Assembly: GCF_000186705.1 (NCBI RefSeq)
Contig: NZ_AEUE01000007.1
Span: 186,001-250,000 of the forward strand
DNA: 64,000 nucleotides
Reading direction: 5' to 3'
DNA from: Citromicrobium sp. JLT1363
GTDB lineage: Bacteria; Pseudomonadota; Alphaproteobacteria; Sphingomonadales; Sphingomonadaceae
Part shown: positions 51,325 to 63,282 of the stretch, piece after piece
Position numbering within the stretch: the stretch's first letter is position 1
Layout: every line of letters starts with the position of its first letter
The notes under the pieces: generated by a model
Database searches by the model: none
The model's input: the letters and a program-made list of their open reading frames with translations, nothing else
What the model was told of the DNA's origin: nothing
Translations under genes and position numbers: made by a program

Positions 51325-51738
51325 CTACCGCTCCACGCCCTTGATCTTCCCCCACTGGCGGGCGGCGGTGTAGCCGAGGTAGCCCGTGCCGAAGAGCGCG
51401 TAGAGTTCCTCGGGCAGGCCGCGCAGGTAGGCGGTGATGCCGTTGCCGATATTCGCCGCCATGCGCGGATCGAAGGCGGAGAGCACGCCCATCGGCAGCG
51501 CGAACAGGATCATGGCGTACATCACATAGAGGAATGAGGGGCGTGCGCGGCTGGTCCAGGGGTCGGGCGACTGCGCCTCGGCGATGATCGCGGCCATCTG
51601 CGCCTCGATCAGCTTCAGCTCCTGCGATCCCTCCAGCGCGAGCAGTTCGAGCTTGGCCTTCGCCCGCGCCTCCTTGTCGGGAATGATCTTGTCGATGATC
51701 GAGGCGATGGGTCCGATCAGGCTGTCGATGAGGGGCAT
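51325..51738 (-). CDS. GTA-type 3TM holin-like protein
   Basis: A 137-residue protein resembling the 'holin of gene transfer agent' family (PF11351): an N-terminal amphipathic helix IDSLIGPIASIIDKIIPDKE, a charged helical middle, and hydrophobic segments PSFLYVMYAMILFALPMGVL and GNGITAYLRGLPEELYALFG followed by GYTAARQWGKIKG. In gene transfer agents the homologue helps release particles by membrane permeabilisation. No other GTA or phage gene is within this window, so it is an orphan. The start at 51738 has GGAG 8 bases upstream. Confidence 0.78.
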   Translation of the reverse strand: MPLIDSLIGPIASIIDKIIPDKEARAKAKLELLALEGSQELKLIEAQMAAIIAEAQSPDPWTSRARPSFLYVMYAMILFALPMGVLSAFDPRMAANIGNGITAYLRGLPEELYALFGTGYLGYTAARQWGKIKGVER

Positions 51739-51865
51739 GGGAACGACTCCGGAATGTTGGAGTGTGTTCATGTAACCAGATCGGTTCGTGTAGGAAAATG
51801 GTTTGCGGCATTACAGCCCGCCGCTACCCCGTCCACCAACACACACAAGCAATGGAGAAACGCAC

Positions 51866-52324: not shown

Positions 52325-52467
52325 ACGCGGCCGTCCCGGCAGAAGAACGCGGTCGGCCAGTCGTCAGACGCGCCTCACATGATGACACGGCTGTAACATT
52401 TCCTTCATCCGGTAATCGGCGCGTTTCCGGGGTTTTTCCGGAGTCGTCATTACGGAAAAAAGACAAT

Positions 52468-52486
52468 ATTGCAGTTTTGTTGCAAT
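52468..52486. promoter_or_regulatory. inverted repeat ATTGCA-N7-TGCAAT overlapping a -35 element
   Basis: ATTGCA (52468-52473) and TGCAAT (52481-52486) form a perfect 6-bp inverted repeat whose right arm covers the -35 of the promoter at 52480. The position is right for a repressor or co-activator site; the regulator is unknown. Confidence 0.35.
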
Positions 52487-52509
52487 CTGCGGTCAAAAGT
52501 GCATAATGC
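52480..52509 (+). promoter_or_regulatory. promoter of the small TPR-like gene
   Basis: TTGCAA at 52480-52485 and TAATGC at 52504-52509 with an 18-bp spacer form a plausible housekeeping promoter, about 25 bp before the ATG at 52536. AAGGAGAG follows at good distance from the ATG. Confidence 0.5.
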
Positions 52510-52535
52510 TCTCCACAGAACAAGGAGAGTGAACA

Positions 52536-52859
52536 ATGATGATCCAGGCAATCATCGCCAGCGCAATGATGTTGCAAGGCGTACCGGCAGACGGCCAGGT
52601 GCAGGTTCAGCCGGTCGCCATGATCGAGTCCCAGCAGGACCCGGCCGCGCTGATCAATCTCGGCGTGGAGCTGGCCCAGGCAGGCGAGACCGAGGCAGCG
52701 CGCAAGGCTTTCGAGAAGGTGATCCAGATGCGGGTCGCCTACACGCTGCAGACGACCGACGGGCGCTTCGTCCATCCGTCCGATCTTGCGCGCCAGGGTC
52801 TTCAGATGCTGGACAGCGGCGCGTTTGCCGCCAAGCCGGATCAGATCGCCGCCCGCTGA
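52536..52859 (+). CDS. small exported TPR-like protein
   Basis: A 107-residue protein with a hydrophobic N terminus (IQAIIASAMMLQGVPA) that is probably a signal sequence. The middle has one TPR-like helix pair (AALINLGVELAQAGETEAAR, then KAFEKVI), followed by MRVAYTLQTTDGRFVHPSDL. No family name can be given. The start is ATGATG with AAGGAGAG in front. It has its own promoter and a stem-loop 17 bp after the stop, so it is probably separate from the type IV secretion unit that begins 205 bp downstream. Confidence 0.72.
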   Translation: MMIQAIIASAMMLQGVPADGQVQVQPVAMIESQQDPAALINLGVELAQAGETEAARKAFEKVIQMRVAYTLQTTDGRFVHPSDLARQGLQMLDSGAFAAKPDQIAAR

Positions 52860-52875
52860 CCGGATAGGCCATCGC

Positions 52876-52898
52876 CCGCTCCGCGCACTGCGGAGCGG
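52876..52898 (+). terminator. stem-loop after the TPR-like gene (no T run)
   Basis: CCGCTCCGC and GCGGAGCGG form a perfect 9-bp stem with a GCACT loop, 17 bp after the stop at 52859. TCAAAAA follows, not Ts, so it is a weak intrinsic terminator at best, or an RNA-stabilising 3' end. Confidence 0.4.
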
Positions 52899-52917
52899 TC
52901 AAAAATACGAAATATCC

Positions 52918-52968
52918 TGCCGCCGCAGGTGCTTTGGGATGTCGTCCACAAGGCACTTTGCGGCGGCA
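52918..52968 (+). other. long imperfect hairpin upstream of the vir locus
   Basis: TGCCGCCGCA (52918-52927) pairs with TGCGGCGGCA (52959-52968); inside, GTGCTTTGGGA (52929-52939) pairs with TCCACAAGGCAC (52945-52956), leaving a 5-base TGTCG loop, one bulge and a small internal loop. This gives about 21 base pairs in 51 nt. No T run follows, so it is not a normal terminator. Confidence 0.6.
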
Positions 52969-53012
52969 AGCCGTTGCAAATCCGCGACAACGGGCGGGAA
53001 CCTGTTCGAGCC

Positions 53013-53030
53013 ATGTCACTGCGCTGTCAT
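53013..53030 (+). promoter_or_regulatory. candidate PhoB box upstream of virB1
   Basis: ATGTCAC-TGCG-CTGTCAT matches the PhoB direct repeat CTGTCAY-N4-CTGTCAY at 13 of 14 informative positions (Y counted as either pyrimidine). It ends 34 bp before the chosen virB1 start. The downstream unit is followed by ppk and ppx, phosphate-storage genes. Confidence 0.4.
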
Positions 53031-53064
53031 GTATGATGCGCAAGGCGACATGACGGAGGGCTCG

Positions 53065-53706
53065 ATGATTCTCGGGACATCGGGTCGGTTCGCCGCCTTT
53101 TTCGCGGCGCTGACCCTGCTAACGGCCCCGGCGCGGGCCGACGTTATGGAAATTGGCGAAGGTGGCGCGCGATGGATCGCGGGCCAGCAGGCAGGCATGC
53201 CCGCGGGAGACATGGCGATCACGCCCGCGCAGCTCGTCGCGCTCGACAACGCCGAACTGGTCGACGATCTGCCCGATCATGCCACCTCCGATCCGCGCGT
53301 GACTGCGCAGGCCGTGCCCGATGCCTACAAGGCCAAGGTGGCCGAACTTTCCGCGCGGTTCGATCTCAGCCCCAGCCTGATAGAGGCGCTGGTGTGGCAG
53401 GAAAGCCGCTGGCGCGAGAATGCCGTGTCGCCCGTCGGCGCGCGGGGCCTCGCGCAGCTGATGCCCGGAACCGCACGCGATCTGGGTGTCGATCCCAACG
53501 ATCCCTTCGCCAATCTGGAAGGCGGCGCGCGCTACCTGCGCGAACAGCTCGACCGGTTCGATGGCGATCTCGAGAAGGCGCTGGCGGCCTACAACGCGGG
53601 GCCCGGACGGGTGATCCGCGCCAATGGCGTGCCGCGCATCCGCGAAACGCAGCTTTATGTGGCGGCCATCATGGGCCGCCTCGCCAACCATTCCCGGAAC
53701 GAATAA
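53065..53706 (+). CDS. virB1: lytic transglycosylase (VirB1-like)
   Basis: A 213-residue exported muramidase with a signal sequence (FAAFFAALTLLTAPARA). The SLT domain is clear: ALVWQESRWRENAVSPVGARG with catalytic Glu, LAQLMPGTARDLG, FANLEGGARYLREQL and ALAAYNAGPG. In type IV secretion VirB1 opens peptidoglycan for assembly. It is the first gene of the vir unit, four bases before virB2. The ATG at 53065 was chosen for GGAGGG upstream and because it places the signal sequence first; two other in-frame ATGs lie at 53029 and 53050. Confidence 0.9.
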   Translation: MILGTSGRFAAFFAALTLLTAPARADVMEIGEGGARWIAGQQAGMPAGDMAITPAQLVALDNAELVDDLPDHATSDPRVTAQAVPDAYKAKVAELSARFDLSPSLIEALVWQESRWRENAVSPVGARGLAQLMPGTARDLGVDPNDPFANLEGGARYLREQLDRFDGDLEKALAAYNAGPGRVIRANGVPRIRETQLYVAAIMGRLANHSRNE

Positions 53707-53710
53707 AGGT

Positions 53711-54019
53711 ATGAAAATGAAATCGCTTTCCCGGCTTGCTGCGCTGATCGCGCTTGCTTCACCTTCTGCGGTGCTGGCGCAGGTGCAGCAGCAGGACCCG
53801 GCCGGTTCGGGCCCGATCGTCAATGCGCTGGCGTGGCTTCAGGGCACGCTGCTCGGCAATGTCGCCACCGCCGTTGCCGTGATGGCGGTGGCCGCCGTGG
53901 GCTTCATGATGCTGACCGGCCGCCTCAACTGGCGCTTCGGCGCGACCGTGATCATCGGCGTGTTCATCCTGTTCGGCGCGGCCTCGATCGTGTCCGGCAT
54001 TCAGGCCGCAGCAGGCTAG
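53711..54019 (+). CDS. virB2: VirB2/TrbC-family pilin
   Basis: A 102-residue pilin precursor. A signal sequence ends near residue 23 (SPSAVLAQ), followed by two hydrophobic helices (ATAVAVMAVAAVGFMMLTG and ATVIIGVFILFGAASIV) around a short basic loop with RLNWRFG, the normal VirB2 pilin layout. It is the pilus subunit of the machine. The start is ATGAAAATG; the second ATG at 53717 sits better relative to AAAGG and may be the true one. Confidence 0.88.
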   Translation: MKMKSLSRLAALIALASPSAVLAQVQQQDPAGSGPIVNALAWLQGTLLGNVATAVAVMAVAAVGFMMLTGRLNWRFGATVIIGVFILFGAASIVSGIQAAAG

Positions 54020-54044
54020 GGCAGGGGGAGCGAGGGCCGCCATC

Positions 54045-54329
54045 ATGGATCAGCTCGTCCGCCACCCGGTGCACCGCGCACTCACCCGCCCGCAGATGTT
54101 CGCGGGCGTGACGATGAATTACTTCATCATCAATATCGGCGTCACGACAGAGGTTTTCCTCATCACCGGCAGCTGGCTGGCCCTGCCGGTCGCCGTGGCG
54201 ATGCACGGCGTCGGTTATTTCGCCTGCCTGCGCGAACCGCGCATTTTCGATCTGTGGATCACCAAGGTTTCGAAGTGCCCGCGGGTGAAGAATTACAAGC
54301 GGTGGGGCTGCAACAGCTACGCCGCCTGA
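54045..54329 (+). CDS. virB3: VirB3-family protein
   Basis: A 94-residue membrane protein with a short cytoplasmic start (LVRHPVHRALTRPQMFAGV), two hydrophobic helices and a C-terminal region ending LREPRIFDLWITK. This matches VirB3, an inner-membrane component that partners with VirB4. It lies between virB2 and virB4 as in other T4SS operons. Confidence 0.87.
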   Translation: MDQLVRHPVHRALTRPQMFAGVTMNYFIINIGVTTEVFLITGSWLALPVAVAMHGVGYFACLREPRIFDLWITKVSKCPRVKNYKRWGCNSYAA

Positions 54330-54352
54330 CCTCGACCTAGGAGGGTCGACGT

Positions 54353-56779
54353 ATGAGCAAGTGGAAAGGAGCCGCCGCCTGGAGCGCGAAGGAAGCCCGC
54401 GTTGGCGACCGGCTGCCCTATGCCCGGCTGGTGGACGAGAACACGCTGCTGCTGCGCGATGGTTCGCTGCTGACTGCCATTCAGGTGCCCGGCCTCCTGT
54501 TCGAGACCGAGGATACCGAAGCGCTCAACGCCCACGCCGCGACGCGCGAGGTGATGCTGCGCAGCACGCTCGACAGCCGCTTCGTCATGTACCACCACGT
54601 GATCCGCCGCCGGGTCGAGGTGGAGCTGGATGCGGAGTTCGAAGACCCGCTGGCCGGCCATATCGATGCGCGTTGGAAGGAACGGCTGGGTTCGGGCTCG
54701 CTGTTCATCAACGACCAGTTCGTCACGCTGATCCGTCGCCCCGCGCGCGGCAAGGCGGGCTGGGTCGAAAAGGCGAGCAAGGCGCTCAATGCCCGCAAGA
54801 AGGACGCGGTCGAGGTCGATCCGAAAGACCTGCGCTCGCTTCGTGCCGCCGCCACTGGCCTCGTCGCTTCGCTCCAGCCTTACGGCGCGGCCATGCTGGG
54901 TGATTACACCGGCCCCAAGGGCTACACCAATTCCGAAATCCTGGAGCTGCTTTCGGCGCTATACAATGGCGAGATGCGGCCCGTGCGCCGCCCGGCAGAG
55001 GATCGCGACATCGGCCACATGCTGCCCTATCGCCGGGCGAGCTTTGGCATCGACGCGATGGAGCTGCGCGGTTCGGGCGACCCCGATTTCGCCGCGATGC
55101 TCAGCCTCAAGGACTATCCCGACGCGACCAGCCCGGGCCTGCTCGATTCGCTGCTGCGGCTGCCCTACGAAATGGTCGTTTCGGAGAGCTATGCCCCCGC
55201 CGAACGCACCACTGCGCGCGAGCGGATGGACCTTGCCATCCGGCGCCTGCGCTCTGTCGACGAGGAAGCGCAGGCCGAACGCAACGACATGATGGCCGCG
55301 CGCGATGCGCTGGGCAACGGCGCGGTCGGCTTCGGCGATCATCACCTCTCGGTGCTGGTGCGCGAGCGCACGCTCCCCCGGCTCGACGATGCGACCGCCG
55401 CCTGCGCCGCCGCGCTGGCCGATACGGGCGCCATCGTGGTGCGCGAGGATACCAATCTGGAACCCGCCTTCTGGGCGCAGTTCCCCGGCAACGAGCAGTA
55501 TATCGTGCGCCGCGCGATGATCTCTTCTGCCAATATGGCGAGCTTCGGCTCGCTCCACGGCTTCGCGCTCGGTCAGGCCGAGGGCAACCACTGGGGCGAG
55601 GCGGTGACGCTGCTGGAAACGACCAGCGCGACGCCCTTCTTCTTCAACTTCCACAATGGCGATCTGGGCAATTTCTCGGTCATCGGGCCGTCGGGTTCGG
55701 GCAAGACCGTGGTGATGAACTTCCTCGCCGCGCAGGCGCAGAAGTTCAATCCGCGCACGATCCTGTTCGACAAGGATCGCGGCGCGGAGCTGTTCGTGCG
55801 CGGGATCGGCGGGCGCTACGACCGGATCTATGCGGGCGAGCCTTCGGGCTTCAATCCGCTCTCGCTGCCCGACACGCCCGCGAACCGTGCCTTCCTGCGC
55901 GACTGGCTGGGCGTGATGCTGAAGGCCGAAGGGCCCGAGGAACTGCAGACCGTCAGCCACGCGGTCGATGCGGCGTACGAGAACGATGCGAGCCTGCGCC
56001 GGTTGCGCAATTTCCGCGAACTGCTGAGCGGTACGCGGCGCCCCGAACCCGGCGACCTCGCGGATCGCCTGTCGGCCTGGATCCACGGCGGCGAGCACGC
56101 CTGGCTGTTCGACAACGAGATCGACGAGCTGGACCTCGACCGCAAGACGCTCGGCTTCGACATGACCGCGCTGCTCGAAAACCCGCGGCTGCGCACGCCG
56201 ACGATGATGTACCTGTTCCACCGGATCGAGGAACGGCTCGACGGTGAGCCGACCATGATCCTGATCGACGAAGGCTGGAAAGCGCTCGACGATGAAGTCT
56301 TCGCCGCGCGCATCCGTGACTGGCTGAAGACCTTGCGGAAGCGCAACGCGCTGGTCGGCTTCGCGACGCAGAGCGCGCGCGATGCGCTGGAAAGCCGCAT
56401 CTCTACCGCGCTGGTCGAACAGACCGCCACCATGGTGTTCATGCCCAACAGCCGCGCCCGGCCCGAGGATTATTGCGACGGTTTCGGGCTCACCAGCCAT
56501 GAGCTCGCGCTGATCCGCACGCTGCCCGCGCACAGCCGCTGCTTCCTGGTCCGCCAGCCCGATGCGAGCGTCGTGGTCCGGCTCGACCTGTCGGGCGCGC
56601 CCGAAGTGCTCACCATCCTCTCGGGCAGGGAAAGCAGCGTGCGGCGCCTCGATCTGCTGCGCGAAGCGCTGGGTGATGATCCGGCCGACTGGTTCCCCGC
56701 GCTGACCGGTCATGCCTGGCCGGGTGGTAAGAAGGACGATATCGGCGGCGATCTGCCGTTCAGGCAGGCTGCGGAATGA
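54353..56779 (+). CDS. virB4: VirB4-family ATPase
   Basis: The largest and most conserved ATPase of type IV secretion, powering pilus biogenesis and substrate transfer (808 aa). The N-terminal CagE/TrbE region (about 1-400) is followed by the ATPase domain: Walker A GPSGSGKTVV near residue 445, Walker B MILIDEGWKAL near residue 636, and a RecA-like lid region. GGAGGG lies 6 bases before the ATG at 54353, and the stop overlaps the virB6 start by 4 bases (ATGA), so the genes are translationally coupled. Confidence 0.95.
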   Translation: MSKWKGAAAWSAKEARVGDRLPYARLVDENTLLLRDGSLLTAIQVPGLLFETEDTEALNAHAATREVMLRSTLDSRFVMYHHVIRRRVEVELDAEFEDPLAGHIDARWKERLGSGSLFINDQFVTLIRRPARGKAGWVEKASKALNARKKDAVEVDPKDLRSLRAAATGLVASLQPYGAAMLGDYTGPKGYTNSEILELLSALYNGEMRPVRRPAEDRDIGHMLPYRRASFGIDAMELRGSGDPDFAAMLSLKDYPDATSPGLLDSLLRLPYEMVVSESYAPAERTTARERMDLAIRRLRSVDEEAQAERNDMMAARDALGNGAVGFGDHHLSVLVRERTLPRLDDATAACAAALADTGAIVVREDTNLEPAFWAQFPGNEQYIVRRAMISSANMASFGSLHGFALGQAEGNHWGEAVTLLETTSATPFFFNFHNGDLGNFSVIGPSGSGKTVVMNFLAAQAQKFNPRTILFDKDRGAELFVRGIGGRYDRIYAGEPSGFNPLSLPDTPANRAFLRDWLGVMLKAEGPEELQTVSHAVDAAYENDASLRRLRNFRELLSGTRRPEPGDLADRLSAWIHGGEHAWLFDNEIDELDLDRKTLGFDMTALLENPRLRTPTMMYLFHRIEERLDGEPTMILIDEGWKALDDEVFAARIRDWLKTLRKRNALVGFATQSARDALESRISTALVEQTATMVFMPNSRARPEDYCDGFGLTSHELALIRTLPAHSRCFLVRQPDASVVVRLDLSGAPEVLTILSGRESSVRRLDLLREALGDDPADWFPALTGHAWPGGKKDDIGGDLPFRQAAE

Positions 56780-57966
56780 CCGGCGGCGGAACCTGCGATC
56801 TGGCGATGTCCGAAGCCGCCGGCGGCGTTGCCGCCGCGCTGGAAGCGGTCAATTGCGTCGCCGCCGAAGTGACGGGCGCCACCTTCGGTCGGCTCTTCGC
56901 GCCCGGCGGCGTCCTGGTCAGCGCGCTGACCATCATCCTGACGCTGTACGTGGCGTTCTTTGCCATCAACCTGCTGACGGGTCGCTCGGTTCTGGGCGTG
57001 CGCGCGCTTACGCCCCGCATGATCACGCTGGGGCTGGTGCTGACCTTCGCGACCAGCTGGGTCGCGTATCAGTCGGTCGTCTGGGGCGTGTTCGTCGACG
57101 GGCCGGACTGGCTGGCCAGCGTGCTGACGGGGGACAGCGGGTCGGCCACGCAGACCTTCGCCACCAAGGTCGATGTCGTGTTCGCCGCCGTACAGCAGGC
57201 GAGCGAGGGGAAGACCGATATCGAAACCTTCTCCCCCGCCGGGATGCTGTGGATGGGCGCGCTGCTGTTCATGCTCGGCACGGTCGGCCTGCTCGTCACC
57301 ACGCGGATCGCGCTGGCGCTGCTGATCGCGCTGGGGCCGATCTTCGTGGTCATGGCGCTGTTCGATGGGACGCGCGGGCTGTTCGTCGGCTGGCTGAAGG
57401 GCGTCACCATGATGGCGCTGACACCGCTTTTCGCGGTGCTGGGCGGCTCGATCATGCTCGAAATGTCCGTGCCCATCCTTGCCGCCCTGAACCAGGTGCC
57501 GGGCGAGATTCCCGCGCGCGCGGCGATGGCCTTCTTCATGATCGGCGCGGTGCATGTCGCGCTGATGGCCATGGCGCTCAAGGTGATGGGCACCATGGTC
57601 GGCGGCTGGCAGGTCTTCGGCCTTGCCAGCAGTGACAGCGACAAGGGTCGGGGAAGCGTGCCTGCCGCCGCGCCTGCGCCTGCGCCCGCCGCCTCCAATG
57701 CCTATAACGGCGCTGCAGGTTCGCAGCCCGCGCCCTCCAGCGCAGCGCGGCGCACCGCCGTGGTCGCGGCGACCCCGCCGATGGCCGCGAACGACAGCGG
57801 CGCAGGCGGCAGCGCGGGGGCGGGTGGCTCGCGCGTGACCAACGTCTACGCCACCTCTTCAGGCAACGGACAGCAGGGCGAACCTAGCAAGGCGGCTTCG
57901 CGTACCAGCGGGCTCGGTTCCCGCTTCAAGGCGGCACCTGCCCGCCAAACGGAGAAAGTGAAATGA
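56776..57966 (+). CDS. virB6: VirB6/TrbL-family membrane protein
   Basis: A 396-residue polytopic inner-membrane channel component with six or so hydrophobic helices (for example VSALTIILTLYVAFFAINLL and TTRIALALLIALGPIFVVMA). The WLKGVTMMALTPLFAVLGG segment is typical of VirB6. A low-complexity Ala/Ser/Gly tail follows (about 300-396). The start overlaps virB4 and the stop overlaps virB9 by 4 bases, so no room is left for virB8 or virB7 between them. Confidence 0.9.
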   Translation: MTGGGTCDLAMSEAAGGVAAALEAVNCVAAEVTGATFGRLFAPGGVLVSALTIILTLYVAFFAINLLTGRSVLGVRALTPRMITLGLVLTFATSWVAYQSVVWGVFVDGPDWLASVLTGDSGSATQTFATKVDVVFAAVQQASEGKTDIETFSPAGMLWMGALLFMLGTVGLLVTTRIALALLIALGPIFVVMALFDGTRGLFVGWLKGVTMMALTPLFAVLGGSIMLEMSVPILAALNQVPGEIPARAAMAFFMIGAVHVALMAMALKVMGTMVGGWQVFGLASSDSDKGRGSVPAAAPAPAPAASNAYNGAAGSQPAPSSAARRTAVVAATPPMAANDSGAGGSAGAGGSRVTNVYATSSGNGQQGEPSKAASRTSGLGSRFKAAPARQTEKVK

Positions 57967-58742
57967 TCCGCGCGTTTCTACCCGCGCTCGCCATGCTTGC
58001 GGTGCTCGCCGCGAACCCCGCTGCGGCACAGGACCCCCGGCTGGTCGAACGGCTCTACGATCCGGACGAGGTCGTGGTGATCCAGGGCAAGACCAAGGTG
58101 CAGGCGACGATCGAATTCGGCGAGGGCGAGGCGATCGAGAATGTGGCGGTGGGCGATTCCACCGCCTGGCAGGTCACGCCCAACCAGCGCGCCAACCTGC
58201 TGTTCGTCAAACCGCTGAGCCCCAGCGCGCAGACCAACATGACGGTCGTGACCAACCGTCACACCTATCTGTTCGATCTGGTGGCCAGCCCGCGCGCGAA
58301 ACCGCTGTACATGATGCGCTTCACCTATCCCGAGCCGCCGCCCGAAGAGCAGGAAGCCCAGCTGGCCGAGAACGCCGTGGGCGAAGCGAACGCCATCGAA
58401 CTGGCAGCGGCGACAGACCCGCTGGCGGTGGTCGACCCGGCCATGCTCAACTTCAAATGGCAGGCCAAGGGCGAACGGCAACTGCAGCCGGACGAGGTCT
58501 ACGACGATGGCCGCTCCACCTACCTGCGGTGGAATCAGGACCGGCCTGTACCGGCGATCCTCATCGAGAATTACGAGGGCGAGGAAGGCCCGGTAAATTC
58601 CACGGTGCGCGGCGATACGGTGATCGTCGACGGTGTGCCGAGGGAAATTATCCTGCGCTCGGGTCGTGAAAGAGCAACACTGGTGAACAATGGTCCGGCG
58701 CGGGCAACTGCCGCGAGCGGGCCGGTCAGCGGCGGCCGCTAG
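57963..58742 (+). CDS. virB9: VirB9/CagX-family outer complex protein
   Basis: A 259-residue exported protein with a signal sequence (LPALAMLAVLAANPAAAQ). The CagX/VirB9 domains are visible: RLVERLYDPDEVVVIQGKTK at the N terminus and YDDGRSTYLRW plus GDTVIVDGVPREIILRSG in the C-terminal domain that makes the outer-membrane core together with VirB10. It normally contacts VirB7, which is not encoded here. Confidence 0.92.
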   Translation: MIRAFLPALAMLAVLAANPAAAQDPRLVERLYDPDEVVVIQGKTKVQATIEFGEGEAIENVAVGDSTAWQVTPNQRANLLFVKPLSPSAQTNMTVVTNRHTYLFDLVASPRAKPLYMMRFTYPEPPPEEQEAQLAENAVGEANAIELAAATDPLAVVDPAMLNFKWQAKGERQLQPDEVYDDGRSTYLRWNQDRPVPAILIENYEGEEGPVNSTVRGDTVIVDGVPREIILRSGRERATLVNNGPARATAASGPVSGGR

Positions 58743-58769
58743 GCCAGCCTCGAAAGGGAAGCGAATATT

Positions 58770-59921
58770 ATGCGCCTCGCCATGAAAATGCCGCCCAAGA
58801 AGGCTTCGGGCGATTCGAACGCGGCCAATGATGCGCGCGACGACGATCCGCGCGAGAGCGAAAGCGCGGAGATCATCGATCTCGCCAGCCGCAGCGCCTT
58901 CCCGGCGGTTGCGAAGAAGAAGGGCGGCAGCGACAGCATGGGGATGGTCGCAGGGATTGCGATCGTCGCCGCGCTTGGCCTCGTCACGCTGTGGAGCATG
59001 AGCAGTGCGCGGCTGGAGCCGGAGGAGGCGACGCCCGCCGCCGACCCCGCACCCGCTTCCTCCACCGGGCCGGCCCAGATCGCCGTCGATCCCGCGCCCG
59101 AGGCATCGCCCGTCGGCGCGCCTGCGCAGCAGGTGGTGCGGGTCGATCCGGCGCCTTCGCCGGTGCTTTCGAACAATCCCAACCTTGCGCCGGGCACCGC
59201 CGCAAATCCCTATAACAGCCCGACGATCGTGTTCGATTCCTCGGGCAAGGCGGTCGCATCCGTTCCCGCCGCCGCGCTGCCCGAGGGCGCGCGAGCCGGA
59301 GGCGAGGGCGCGACGGGCAGTTCGGCGGGCGATTTCGCCAGCCGTGTCGGCGGTGTCGGCGGCAGCACCGCCCGCGCACAGCCGCTCGCCAACCCGGCGA
59401 CGACGGTTACGCAGGGCACGCTGATCCCCGCCATCCTGGAAACCGCGATCGACACCGACGTGCCCGGCTACGTGCGCGCGGTGGTGAGCCAGGATGTGAA
59501 GAGTTTCGACGGCAAGAACGTGTTGATCCCGCGCTCCAGCCGCCTGATCGGCCAGTACCAGTCGGGTCTGCAGGCGGGCCAGAAGCGCGCTTACGTGATC
59601 TGGACCCGCGTGATCCGGCCCGACGGCGTGAGCGTGAACCTGCAATCGCCGGGTGTCGGCTTCGACGGGACGACCGGGCTGCCTGGCGATGTGGACAGCC
59701 GTTTCTTCCAGCGCTTCGGTTCGGCCATGCTGCTCTCCGTGGTTGGCGGGCTGTCCGCGATCGGCACCGGCGGCGCTTCGGTGGTGATCGGCGGGGGCGG
59801 CCAGGCGGCCGCGGCTGCGGCAGCATCGCAGGACAGCCAGCTCGGCCCGGTGGTGCGCGTGCGTGCGGGCGAGCCGATCCGCGTGTTTACCGCACGCGAT
59901 CTCGGCTTCGCAGGTCTCTAG
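58770..59921 (+). CDS. virB10: VirB10-family scaffold protein
   Basis: A 383-residue protein spanning the envelope: cytoplasmic N terminus, one membrane helix (GMVAGIAIVAALGLVTLWSM near residue 70), a Pro-rich periplasmic linker and the C-terminal barrel. Diagnostic segments are TQGTLIPAILETAIDTDVPG, VKSFDGKNVLIPRSSRLIGQ, AYVIWTRVIRPDGVSVNL and PIRVFTARDLGF. VirB10 links inner ATPases to the outer pore. The start is the ATG at 58770; AGCGAATATT lies before it. Confidence 0.93.
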   Translation: MRLAMKMPPKKASGDSNAANDARDDDPRESESAEIIDLASRSAFPAVAKKKGGSDSMGMVAGIAIVAALGLVTLWSMSSARLEPEEATPAADPAPASSTGPAQIAVDPAPEASPVGAPAQQVVRVDPAPSPVLSNNPNLAPGTAANPYNSPTIVFDSSGKAVASVPAAALPEGARAGGEGATGSSAGDFASRVGGVGGSTARAQPLANPATTVTQGTLIPAILETAIDTDVPGYVRAVVSQDVKSFDGKNVLIPRSSRLIGQYQSGLQAGQKRAYVIWTRVIRPDGVSVNLQSPGVGFDGTTGLPGDVDSRFFQRFGSAMLLSVVGGLSAIGTGGASVVIGGGGQAAAAAAASQDSQLGPVVRVRAGEPIRVFTARDLGFAGL

Positions 59922-59928
59922 GCGCACC

Positions 59929-61005
59929 TTGGCCGACGCCGATCCGCAAACCATGGGCGCAGACCTGCAATCCGTGACATCGGGCAACCCCGCCGAGCCT
60001 GCCGATACGCAGGCTCCGGCGGCTTCGGGTTCGGGTTCGCACAGCGTCTATCTCGAGGCTTATCTGGCGCCGTTCCGCCAGTGGCTGGACCGCGACACGG
60101 TGACGGAGATCATCGTCAACCGGCCGGGCGAGGTCTGGATCGAGGATGCGGCAACCCCCGGCGGGATGCAGCGGATCGAGACCGACGCGATCACCGATAT
60201 CCTCGTCCAGCGGCTGGCCGAACAGGTCGCCCGCGTCAGCCACCAGGGCATCAACCGCGAGCATCCGCTGCTGGGCGCGACGCTGCCCGATGGCGCGCGC
60301 GTGCAGTTCTGCGGTCCGCCCGCCAGCCGCAAGCACTGGGTCATGGCGATCCGCCGCCACCGGCGGCTGGATCTGCCGCTCGATGCGTATGACACCGGGC
60401 CGTTGAAACGTCAGGAGCAGGCGGCAATGCCCGATCCGCAGGCAGAGCCCATCGCATTCCTGCGCGAGGCGATCCTCCAGCGGCAGACGATCCTGATTTC
60501 GGGCGGCACCAGCACCGGCAAGACTACCTTCCTCAACGCGATGCTGGGGGAGATTCCCAAGGACCAGCGCGTGGTTCTGGTAGAAGATACACCGGAATTG
60601 AAGCTGCCGGGGGAGAACGGCGTGGGGCTGGTCGCGGTGAAGGGCGAACTGGGCGAAGCCAAGGTGACGGCCAACGAACTGCTTCAGGCCGCGCTGCGCC
60701 TGCGTCCGGACCGGATCGTGCTGGGCGAACTGCGCGGGCAGGAATCGGTCTCCTTCCTGCGGGCGATCAACACCGGCCACCCGGGCAGCTTCTCGACCGT
60801 GCACGCCAACTCGCTACACGGCGCGCTGGAGCAATTGTCGCTGATGGTGATGCAGACCGGTATCGGCCTCAGCCGCAAGGATATCATCGCCTACGCCGCC
60901 AGCGTGATCGATGTGATCGTCCAGCTGGGCAGGGGGGCTGACGGCAAGCGCGGCATCGCCCAGATCGCGCGCAGTGCAGACCTGTTGAAATCCGACGACT
61001 GGTAG
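59929..61005 (+). CDS. virB11: VirB11-family secretion ATPase
   Basis: A 358-residue hexameric traffic ATPase. The N-terminal domain starts VYLEAYLAPFRQWLDRDTVT; the ATPase core has Walker A ISGGTSTGKTTF (about 190), VVLVEDTPELKLP (Asp box), RLRPDRIVLGELRGQE (His/Glu region) and GHPGSFSTVHANS. It powers pilus assembly and substrate passage. The TTG at 59929 was taken as start, 7 bases after the virB10 stop; the first ATG is at 59953 but has no ribosome binding site. Confidence 0.92.
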   Translation: MADADPQTMGADLQSVTSGNPAEPADTQAPAASGSGSHSVYLEAYLAPFRQWLDRDTVTEIIVNRPGEVWIEDAATPGGMQRIETDAITDILVQRLAEQVARVSHQGINREHPLLGATLPDGARVQFCGPPASRKHWVMAIRRHRRLDLPLDAYDTGPLKRQEQAAMPDPQAEPIAFLREAILQRQTILISGGTSTGKTTFLNAMLGEIPKDQRVVLVEDTPELKLPGENGVGLVAVKGELGEAKVTANELLQAALRLRPDRIVLGELRGQESVSFLRAINTGHPGSFSTVHANSLHGALEQLSLMVMQTGIGLSRKDIIAYAASVIDVIVQLGRGADGKRGIAQIARSADLLKSDDW

Positions 61006-61128
61006 CATCCGTTCGTCCAAAACCGGGCTGGCCTGCCGTGCGCCCACCGGATAGAGAACGCGCGAAACCGCGCACCTGCGCCCTGCGCAGGTCAGACAGT
61101 CGCAACCAAAGCGAGAGCTCAAGACCCG

Positions 61129-63282
61129 ATGGCTTCCCCGCTCAGCGCCGATTCCAGCCGTGATATCGGTTCGCGCTTCTTCAACCGTGAACTAAGCTGG
61201 CTTGCCTTCAACGATCGCGTGCTCGCCGAAGCGTGCAACACGGATTACCCGCTGCTCGAGCGGCTGCGGTTCCTCTCCATCTCCGGAAGCAATCTCGACG
61301 AATTCATGATGATCCGCGTGGCCGGTCTGGTCGGCCAGGTGCAGCGCGGAATCGACAAGCCGTCCGCAGACGGGCTCACCCCCGCGCAGCAGCTGTCCGA
61401 AATTCGCGCCAGGCTCGCCCAGCTCAATGAACGCCAGCAGGGCACCCTGCGCGACCTGCGCGAGATGCTGGCCGATGCGGGCATCCACATGGCGGACGAC
61501 CGGCGGATCGACCGCGAGGCGCATGAATGGCTGCGCAGGCATTTCCTGGACGAGATCATGCCCGTCATCACGCCGCAGGCGCTCGACCCGGCGCACCCGT
61601 TCCCCTTCATCGCCAACGAAGGGCTCGGCGTGCTTTTCACCGTGCGCCGCGAAGACCTGAAGAACCAGGAAACCGAAGACCTGGTCGAGATGGTGCTGAT
61701 CCCCTCGGCCTTGCCGCGCTTCCTGCGCGTGCCGGGGGACGAGGCGATCTATATCGGGATCGAGAACCTGATTACCCGCTTCGCCGAACACCTGTTCCCC
61801 GGCTTCGAGATGCGCGGCAGCGGTGTGTTCCGGGTGCTGCGCGACAGCGATATCGAGATCGAGGAAGAGGCGGAGGACCTTGTCCGCACCTTCCGCAGCG
61901 CGATCCAGCGCAGGCGGCGAGGGCAGGTGATCCAGCTGGAGCTGGAGACCGAGTTCGATCCCACTGCGGAAGCGCTGCTGCGCGAACGGCTGGCGACGCC
62001 GGGCGCATCCTTCGTCAAGATCGATGGAATGCTGGGCATGGCGGGCCTGTCCGACATCGTGAAGGAAGACCGGCCCGATCTGAAGTTCGATGCCTATTCG
62101 CCGCGCTATCCCGAGCGTATCCGCGAACATGACGGGGATTGCTTCGCCGCCATCCGCGAAAAGGACATCATCATCCACCACCCGTACGAAAGCTTCGACG
62201 TGGTGGTCGATTTCATCCGGCAGGCCGCCGCGGACCCCAATGTGGTGGCGATCAAGCAGGCGCTTTACCGCGCAGGCACGCAGTCGGAGGTTATCGAGGC
62301 GCTGGTGGAGGCGGCGGAGAACGGCAAGTCCGTGACCGCCGTTGTCGAGCTGAAGGCCCGCTTCGACGAAGAGCAGAACCTCTACTGGGCCAACAAGCTT
62401 GAGCGTGCCGGCGTTCAGGTGATCTACGGTTTCGTCGACTGGAAAACCCATGCCAAGGCGGCGATGGTCGTCCGGCGCGAGGAAGAGGGCTTCCGCACCT
62501 ATTGCCACTTCGGGACGGGCAATTATCACCCGATCACCGCCAAGATATACACCGATCTCAGCTACTTCACCGCCGATCCGCGGCTGGGCCGGGATGCCGC
62601 GAAGCTGTTCAACTTCGTCACGGGCTATGTGGAGCCGCACGGGACGGAACTGTTGAGCATCAGCCCGATCGACCTGCGCGAGACGCTTTATGCGCGGATC
62701 GATGCGGAGGCCGAGGCGGCGAAACAGGGCAAGCCTTCGGGTATCTGGATCAAGATGAACCAGTTGACCGATACCGGCATGATCGACCGGCTCTATGCCG
62801 CAAGCGAAGCGGGGGTCGAAGTGCAGCTGGTGGTGCGCGGCATCTGCAATCTGCGCCCCGGCGTTCCTGGCCTGTCGGAGAATATCCGCGTCAAGTCGAT
62901 CATCGGGCGTTTTCTCGAACACAGCCGCATCTACGCCTTCGCCAATGGCGCACCGATTCCGGGTGAACAGACGCGGGTGTATATCTCCAGCGCGGACATG
63001 ATGGAGCGCAACCTCGACCGGCGCGTTGAACAGCTTGTGCCGATCGAGAACCAGACGGTACATGACCAGATCTTGCAGCAGGTGCTGCTCGCCAACCTAC
63101 TCGATAATGAAAGAAGCTGGGTTTTGCAGCCGGACGGAACTTACGAGCGTGTCGAAGCGGGCGATGCCAAGCCCTTCAACTGCCATCGCTATTTCATGAC
63201 CAACCCCTCCCTCTCGGGCCGTGGAGGCGCGCTGGAGGCAGGGGCCGTGCCCAAACTGGCTCTGCGGCGGGGGGTTGCGTGA
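61129..63282 (+). CDS. ppk: polyphosphate kinase 1
   Basis: Makes inorganic polyphosphate from the gamma-phosphate of ATP. The 717-residue PPK1 has the SRFFNRELSWLAFNDRVL N terminus, HHPYESFDVVVDFIRQAA (nucleotide region) and the catalytic histidines: His441 in WKTHAKAAMVV and His460 in CHFGTGNYHP, spaced 19 residues apart as in E. coli (His435 and His454). The HSRIYAF segment near residue 600 is the PLD-like C-terminal motif. It follows virB11 by 123 bp and overlaps ppx by one base. Confidence 0.96.
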   Translation: MASPLSADSSRDIGSRFFNRELSWLAFNDRVLAEACNTDYPLLERLRFLSISGSNLDEFMMIRVAGLVGQVQRGIDKPSADGLTPAQQLSEIRARLAQLNERQQGTLRDLREMLADAGIHMADDRRIDREAHEWLRRHFLDEIMPVITPQALDPAHPFPFIANEGLGVLFTVRREDLKNQETEDLVEMVLIPSALPRFLRVPGDEAIYIGIENLITRFAEHLFPGFEMRGSGVFRVLRDSDIEIEEEAEDLVRTFRSAIQRRRRGQVIQLELETEFDPTAEALLRERLATPGASFVKIDGMLGMAGLSDIVKEDRPDLKFDAYSPRYPERIREHDGDCFAAIREKDIIIHHPYESFDVVVDFIRQAAADPNVVAIKQALYRAGTQSEVIEALVEAAENGKSVTAVVELKARFDEEQNLYWANKLERAGVQVIYGFVDWKTHAKAAMVVRREEEGFRTYCHFGTGNYHPITAKIYTDLSYFTADPRLGRDAAKLFNFVTGYVEPHGTELLSISPIDLRETLYARIDAEAEAAKQGKPSGIWIKMNQLTDTGMIDRLYAASEAGVEVQLVVRGICNLRPGVPGLSENIRVKSIIGRFLEHSRIYAFANGAPIPGEQTRVYISSADMMERNLDRRVEQLVPIENQTVHDQILQQVLLANLLDNERSWVLQPDGTYERVEAGDAKPFNCHRYFMTNPSLSGRGGALEAGAVPKLALRRGVA

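Follow-up and report, generated by a model that had tools for sequence, protein, structure and literature searches.

A VirB-type secretion locus without VirB8 in Citromicrobium and its relatives

Can a type IV secretion system (T4SS) do without VirB8, which is treated as a core part of such machines? The question is raised by a locus of Citromicrobium sp. JLT1363 at positions 53065-61005 (plus strand) of the 64,000-nucleotide stretch that we analyzed, here called the window (assembly GCF_000186705.1, contig NZ_AEUE01000007.1, positions 186,001 to 250,000). It encodes VirB1, VirB2, VirB3, VirB4, VirB6, VirB9, VirB10, and VirB11; a sequence-only reading of the window had named these eight genes, and each is backed by a Pfam match (E 4.6e-18 to 5.3e-52). 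That reading also proposed an undescribed system, which does not hold: the locus is a real, widespread, and little-described variant, whose lack of VirB8 and gene set are already in print. A table footnote of 2009, "Lacks VirB8," marks Erythrobacter litoralis HTCC2594 and Erythrobacter sp. NAP1 (PMC2702493). For Citromicrobium, virB2B3B4-virB6-virB9B10B11 was given as the gene set in 2012 (PMC3338782). A first T4SS copy was reported in 2016 in all 14 of the Erythrobacter compared and described as coevolved with the genomes (PMC4919336). No comparative or functional study of the missing VirB8 was found in the excerpts of open-licence literature that we searched.

The locus and its missing parts

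The features are listed below with their Pfam matches and, where given, the range of the ratio of nonsynonymous to synonymous substitution rates (dN/dS) from four comparisons (loci L043-L046).

52536..52859, +, small TPR protein of 107 amino acids, upstream of virB1; sub-cut-off TPR matches
53065..53706, +, VirB1 lytic transglycosylase; SLT, PF01464, E 2.2e-25; dN/dS 0.14-0.19
53717..54019 (start may be 53711), +, VirB2 pilin; TrbC, PF04956, E 4.6e-18; dN/dS 0.03-0.23
54045..54329, +, VirB3; PF05101, E 1.8e-28; dN/dS 0.05-0.13
54353..56779, +, VirB4 ATPase; CagE_TrbE_VirB, PF03135, E 4.6e-42; P-loop GPSGSGKT; dN/dS 0.07-0.15
56776..57966, +, VirB6 with a low-complexity C-terminal tail; TrbL, PF04610, E 7e-38, residues 55-266
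57963..58742, +, VirB9; CagX, PF03524, E 5.3e-52
58770..59921, +, VirB10; TrbI, PF03743, E 1.1e-47; dN/dS 0.15-0.25
59953..61005 (start probably ATG 59953), +, VirB11 ATPase; T2SSE, PF00437, E 6.2e-38; P-loop GGTSTGKT; dN/dS 0.08-0.14

Among NCBIfam models, VirB4 passes TIGR00929 (725.5 bits; cut-off, 643.1) and VirB11 scores above the cut-off of TIGR02788 (297.9 bits), with matches of VirB3, VirB9, and VirB10 falling below theirs. The locus thus has the VirB4 and the VirB3, VirB6, VirB9, VirB10, and VirB11 in conserved order that define the VirB type (MPF_T, type IVA), without the VirB8 that also belongs to that definition. Its genes are tightly packed: intergenic gaps from virB1 to virB11 are all ≤31 nucleotides (nt), and 4-base overlaps join virB4 to virB6 (56776-56779) and virB6 to virB9 (57963-57966), the second of which closes the virB8 slot. 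These overlaps, which the sequence-only reading had pointed out, are real and recur as the most frequent arrangement among related loci. The same reading called the base composition host-like; at 67.5% G+C the locus is host-like, as claimed, yet it is the most G+C-rich part of the window, whose equal-sized stretches average 65.3% (standard deviation 1.5) and elsewhere reach at most 67.4%.

By profile, VirB8 is missing from the genome as a whole. The Pfam model PF04335 has no match in the entire JLT1363 genome (G000; 3.12 Mb in 26 contigs, completeness listed as 100), nor does profile A1, built from 16 related VirB8s and searched in 42 genomes, match there at E values up to 1. Strong A1 matches in G035, G105, and G432 provide no independent control, because the VirB8s of these genomes are themselves rows of A1. 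In G418, A1 gave one real, partial match and missed one of two PF04335-type VirB8s, so the profile is narrow; weak matches were seen in G146 (E 0.006 and 0.18) and in G220, G182, and G079 (0.2-0.65). We also considered a VirB8 hidden in another protein of the locus. Comparison by hhalign of a VirB8 profile with alignments of the TPR protein, VirB1, VirB2, VirB3, VirB6, VirB9, VirB10, and VirB11 (VirB4 was left out) found none: probabilities were 0.1-1.3%, the TPR protein included, against 95.2% for plasmid-type VirB8s compared with A1 as a control. All gene absences reported here rest on profiles, which are blind to unrelated replacements.

Other canonical parts were looked for as well, the sequence-only reading having noted the lack of VirB5, VirB7, and VirD4 at the locus. 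PF07996 (VirB5) has no match in G000 or in six VirB8-positive sister genomes tested (G035, G105, G140, G164, G244, and G126). We found no plausible small lipoprotein ORF (open reading frame) for VirB7 on the plus strand of positions 52400-61300, the remaining genome not having been searched for one; a lipobox-like motif scan of small plus-strand ORFs picked out four, none of which seemed by eye to have a hydrophobic signal sequence. VirB9 contains no cysteines. VirB2, with a signal peptide and two hydrophobic stretches (by eye), is single at the locus, so the several VirB2/VirB5 copies expected of a Trw-type system are lacking.

A VirB-type VirD4 was not found in G000. Its sole PF02534 match lies on another contig (L042 178-2631, contig C23) and is an F-type TraD-like coupling protein, fitting the TraD model TIGR02759 best at 374.5 bits, below the cut-off. 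Several relatives have partial PF02534 matches of similar size. VirD4 queries taken from L142 and L182, which were positive in L142, L161, and L182, had no match at E 1e-3 in the window or in the examined stretches of 80 named orthologous and 12 sister loci; a VirD4 coupling protein, expected at the locus of a conjugation system, is thus absent from it. No relaxase was recognized among ten upstream ORFs, four of which had no family match (no genome-wide relaxase search was made).

Conservation, spread, and history of the VirB8-less type

A genome scan gave 231 relatives of the window's VirB4, and the named loci are the 80 best of these, the nearest among them being from Citromicrobium and Alteriqipengyuania (96% VirB4 identity). 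VirB4 was found in all 80, VirB3 and VirB6 in 79 each, VirB1, VirB2, VirB9, and VirB10 in 77 each, and VirB11 in 71; many of the missing genes fall near contig ends, and gene order is the same wherever the genes were found. With start codons chosen to lie as near as possible to the window's, virB6 and virB9 are −4 to +59 nt apart in every one of the 77 measurable loci (−4 in 57), and virB4 and virB6 overlap in 76 of 76 (−4 in 73). Neither VirB8 nor VirD4 occurs within the examined stretches of these loci. A local deletion of virB8, which would have undone the sequence-only reading, is ruled out by the closed slot in all 77. The same gene set extends across many genera and to more distant loci: nine more distant VirB8-less loci have virB6-virB9 gaps of −4 to +110 nt, depending on the start chosen, and in eleven loci, these nine included, the virB9 reading frame runs open through the end of virB6.

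The virB genes are under purifying selection. For all eight, dN/dS is 0.03-0.29 at dS of 0.36 to 1.30, and in Citromicrobium-type loci the values for the ATPases are near those of the putative downstream ppk (0.06-0.08 in three loci compared, versus 0.07-0.15 for VirB4). The suggestion that the locus dispenses with VirB8 as a conserved machine therefore gains support, profile based as far as the absence is concerned.

In a draw of 246 genomes from the order, 68 have a VirB4 of this type (≥62% identity), which makes this a common machine. PF04335 finds a match in 19 of the 68 and nothing in the other 49; in the four of the 19 that were inspected (G161, G184, G164, and G244), the VirB8 belongs to a second T4SS. 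PF04335 is positive in 74 of the 246. A class-wide draw of 337 genomes gave Pfam matches to VirB4 in 76 and to VirB8 in 74; five genomes match for VirB8 and not for VirB4, so some VirB4s are probably overlooked by the model. Of the 72 VirB4-bearing genomes outside the window's family, 68 also hold VirB8, although G418 does so only away from its VirB8-less locus. Of the four exceptions, G513 and G677 carry compact loci that lack VirB8; in G282 and G334, profiles detected only VirB4 in the stretch examined, plus a weak VirB2 match in G282. The type occurs in 4 of 82 genomes of G418's order, all four from one genus and all 82 from one family code. Caulobacter vibrioides, a control genome, showed a VirB4-family match and no VirB8-family match in the scans; the VirB-type systems listed for Phenylobacterium zucineum include VirB8 (PMC2529317). 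Close plasmid-borne kin were sought and not found: none of the 4848 plasmid records matching at the limit set carries a VirB4 that is at least 60% identical.

In a VirB4 tree of 35 rows, 21 VirB8-less loci form one clade (support 99/94), which spans four family codes of the order (f1, f3, f5, and f8) and one from another part of the class (f58). Beside it stand 12 VirB8-bearing loci, with two further VirB8-bearing loci as outgroups (G171:C2 and G432:C15) that carry VirB5 and VirD4 beside VirB8. This tree is a 48-row tree minus 13 rows; it includes 11 of the 80 named loci, and L142, L161, and L137 remain on long branches. The sister T4SS (L123-L134) is built from the same families, and its VirB4s are 52-56% identical to the window's. 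Unlike the window, it keeps virB8 between virB6 and virB9; VirB1 was found in only 1 of the 12 loci, and virB2 often lies elsewhere in the locus.

PF02534 is absent from 5 of the 12 sister-bearing genomes (G105, G126, G140, G164, and G244), matches only in part, with no single score above about 45 bits, in 4 (G035, G161, G184, and G222), and matches in full elsewhere in the genome in 3 (G044, G175, and G198). It is likewise absent from the VirB8-less genomes G019, G025, G050, G068, G077, G079, G100, G137, G149, G177, G181, G187, G206, and G218; in the remaining ones matches are partial or distant, the fragmented draft G002 not being judgeable for nearness. Because the sister clade lacks VirB5 and VirD4 at the locus and yet has VirB8, loss of VirB5 and VirD4 appears to be older than loss of VirB8. 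We read this as a stepwise loss, with VirB8 probably going last, once or perhaps twice. The second event is suggested by G677 (family code f70; L177), which combines a compact, virB1-containing locus with the lack of any VirB8 match in its genome: a 24-row quick tree that includes G677 and G645 places it among the VirB8-bearing sisters (support of 91 for the group), which would mean a second VirB8 loss.

A possible surface machine and its rivals

On balance, we lean toward the view that a whole lineage of Gram-negative T4SSs forms working machines that lack VirB8, with neither periplasmic arches nor VirB8 tails on VirB4, and that the prior loss of VirD4 and VirB5 made VirB8 dispensable, perhaps more than once, if G677 is taken into account. 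What such a machine does is a more tentative matter. We suggest, as the likeliest of the readings though one we would not yet call probable, that a VirB-type T4SS derived from a full VirB/VirD4 system now builds a VirB2 pilus or pseudopilus independently of VirD4 and serves the cell surface. The ancestor would have lost VirD4 (coupling) and VirB5 (pilus tip or stalk), then VirB8, leaving an outer-membrane core of VirB9 and VirB10, a reduced inner-membrane platform of VirB3, VirB4, and VirB6, the VirB2 pilin, the wall-opening enzyme VirB1, and the ATPases VirB4 and VirB11. The two ATPases may extract VirB2 from the inner membrane, and a pilus or pseudopilus could then be pushed through the VirB9/VirB10 channel without a VirB8 ring, for use in attachment, biofilm formation, or contact rather than in DNA movement via a coupling protein. 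This proposal follows from the retention of the pilin, both ATPases, and VirB1, and the purifying selection on pilin and ATPases counts in its favor. In the R388 system, pilus biogenesis needs only VirB2-VirB11 and not VirD4 (PMC9259494).

Several points weigh against this account. The same R388 work includes VirB8 among the proteins required for the pilus, so that a VirB8-less pilus would not be expected; there, VirB8 tails bind the outer VirB4 subunits, and the VirB8 periplasmic domains form a ring, the arches, thought to direct the pilus (PMC9259494). A windowed comparison of 14 VirB8-less with 12 VirB8-bearing VirB4s, which looked for relaxed constraint in the former, gave no clear pattern. 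The quick 24-row tree implies two changes of VirB8 state, and the first quick tree, of 48 rows, implies four; the latter took in the loci of G546, G457, G354, and G435, whose VirB8 lies elsewhere in the genome, as well as very long branches. A VirB8 analogue of unrelated sequence is possible, and pilus, adhesion, and secretion are all unobserved. Finally, VirB2 is not diversifying, unlike that of Bartonella Trw.

Trw, which has a VirB8 homologue, carries several variable copies of VirB2 and VirB5, unlike the window. It is nevertheless one of the T4SSs without VirD4, together with Ptl, Brucella VirB, and ComB, and its pili are proposed to bind host cells (PMC12857230), a parallel that speaks for the pilus reading. 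The conjugation systems of Mycoplasma integrative and conjugative elements keep VirD4, in which they differ from the window. Mycoplasma has neither cell wall nor outer membrane. Its systems are reported to lack VirB1-like parts and, as here, VirB8-like ones (PMC12857230). Among plasmids, the nearest VirB4 is of the sister type, from Sphingomonas aerolata (NZ_CP098765.1; typed non-mobilizable, VirB8 annotated); an RHS-repeat gene (L181 3360-6233, minus strand) lies upstream of that T4SS. The system of Bosea sp. AS-1 plasmid NZ_CP022370.1, an example of the full VirB/VirD4 (MPF_T) conjugation systems of Alphaproteobacteria, shares families and order with the window (VirB4 43.6% identical) but has VirB8, extra genes between virB4 and virB8, and a coupling protein of the VirD4 type; it is typed as conjugative, with a MOBP relaxase.

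Import of DNA has been suggested for Citromicrobium (PMC3338782); a ComB-like retractable pseudopilus would draw DNA into the periplasm, leaving passage across the inner membrane to standard competence proteins. Helicobacter ComB imports DNA and resembles the window in lacking VirD4 and VirB5, but it has VirB7 and VirB8 and no VirB11 (PMC12857230). This is the opposite pattern, since a ComB-type set (VirB2-4 and VirB6-10 without VirB11) contrasts with the VirB11 present and VirB8 absent here, and we consider DNA uptake unlikely. We are similarly doubtful of a two-step exporter, in which folded periplasmic or lipidated proteins would leave through VirB9/VirB10 with VirB2 acting as a piston, a mode put forward for Ptl. 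Probable lipoproteins do adjoin the locus in relatives, but the window and the Citromicrobium-type loci L043-L045 showed neither of the two kinds, and such an exporter has no known cargo. Ptl also keeps VirB8, which counts against the comparison. It does share with the window the lack of VirD4 and VirB5 (PMC12857230).

Less likely again is a conventional machine that draws VirB8 and its other missing parts from elsewhere in the genome, in the form of unrelated or highly divergent proteins. Unrelated replacements would be invisible to our searches, A1 is narrow, and the conserved TPR protein beside virB1 could be taken for one; against this, that protein is dissimilar to VirB8 by hhalign, and the broad PF04335 model, which found nothing in G000, detects VirB8 in 74 of the 246 genomes of the order. 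The stepwise losses would also fit a decaying remnant of a conjugation system, an idea largely refuted, and to us very improbable, given the low dN/dS of all eight genes, ATPase values near those of ppk, intact P-loops, and a gene set constant across many genera and more distant loci.

If the VirB8-less machine does work, VirB8 would be needed for substrate translocation or for a VirB5-led start of the pilus and not for the basic envelope machine. A stable VirB8-less lineage beside a VirB8-bearing sister amounts to a natural experiment on the role of the arches, and a form kept by so many bacteria could test what VirB8 does; the machine's own function has so far only been inferred, and it merits a knockout.

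Neighboring genes

The ten upstream ORFs tested (26014-51254) include members of the tRNA synthetase, chemotaxis receptor, ABC ATPase, peptidase M28, histidine kinase, and biotin carboxylase families (6 of 10). No mobile-element family is among these matches, which agrees, as far as the tested ORFs go, with the earlier description of a context without mobile genes. Genes read from their translations as ppk and ppx appear to lie downstream of the locus. Close to the T4SS on the other side is a GTA_holin_3TM gene (PF11351; window 51325-51771, minus strand), shared only with L043-L045 among the 80 loci.

A homologue of the small TPR gene stands upstream of virB1 in 65 of the 80 loci. Because it is kept both with and without ppk downstream, we regard its product as a candidate accessory part of the T4SS. 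The protein is probably exported, judging by eye from its signal sequence; residues D35, N41, G50, A55, and L71, among others, are invariant in 21 sequences, and dN/dS is 0.23-0.39. The conservation of this gene goes beyond what the sequence-only reading had noted, as do the reach of the type into other families and the VirB8-keeping sister that also lacks VirB5 and VirD4 at its locus.

Upstream of the T4SS, 60 of the 80 loci encode a probable lipoprotein of about 550 amino acids (for example, L046 6429-8195, minus strand); members tested have no Pfam, NCBIfam, or PDB sequence match. Adjoining it, a TonB receptor is encoded upstream in 59 of the 80, though, like the lipoprotein, not in L043-L045. 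An OmpR-like regulator, an EnvZ-like kinase, and a dioxygenase-like probable lipoprotein occur near the T4SS in L135, L136, L138, L159, L160, and L180, the six loci with this second lipoprotein, five of them from other families and one from G213. An EnvZ-related kinase is also found near the VirB8-bearing locus L134.

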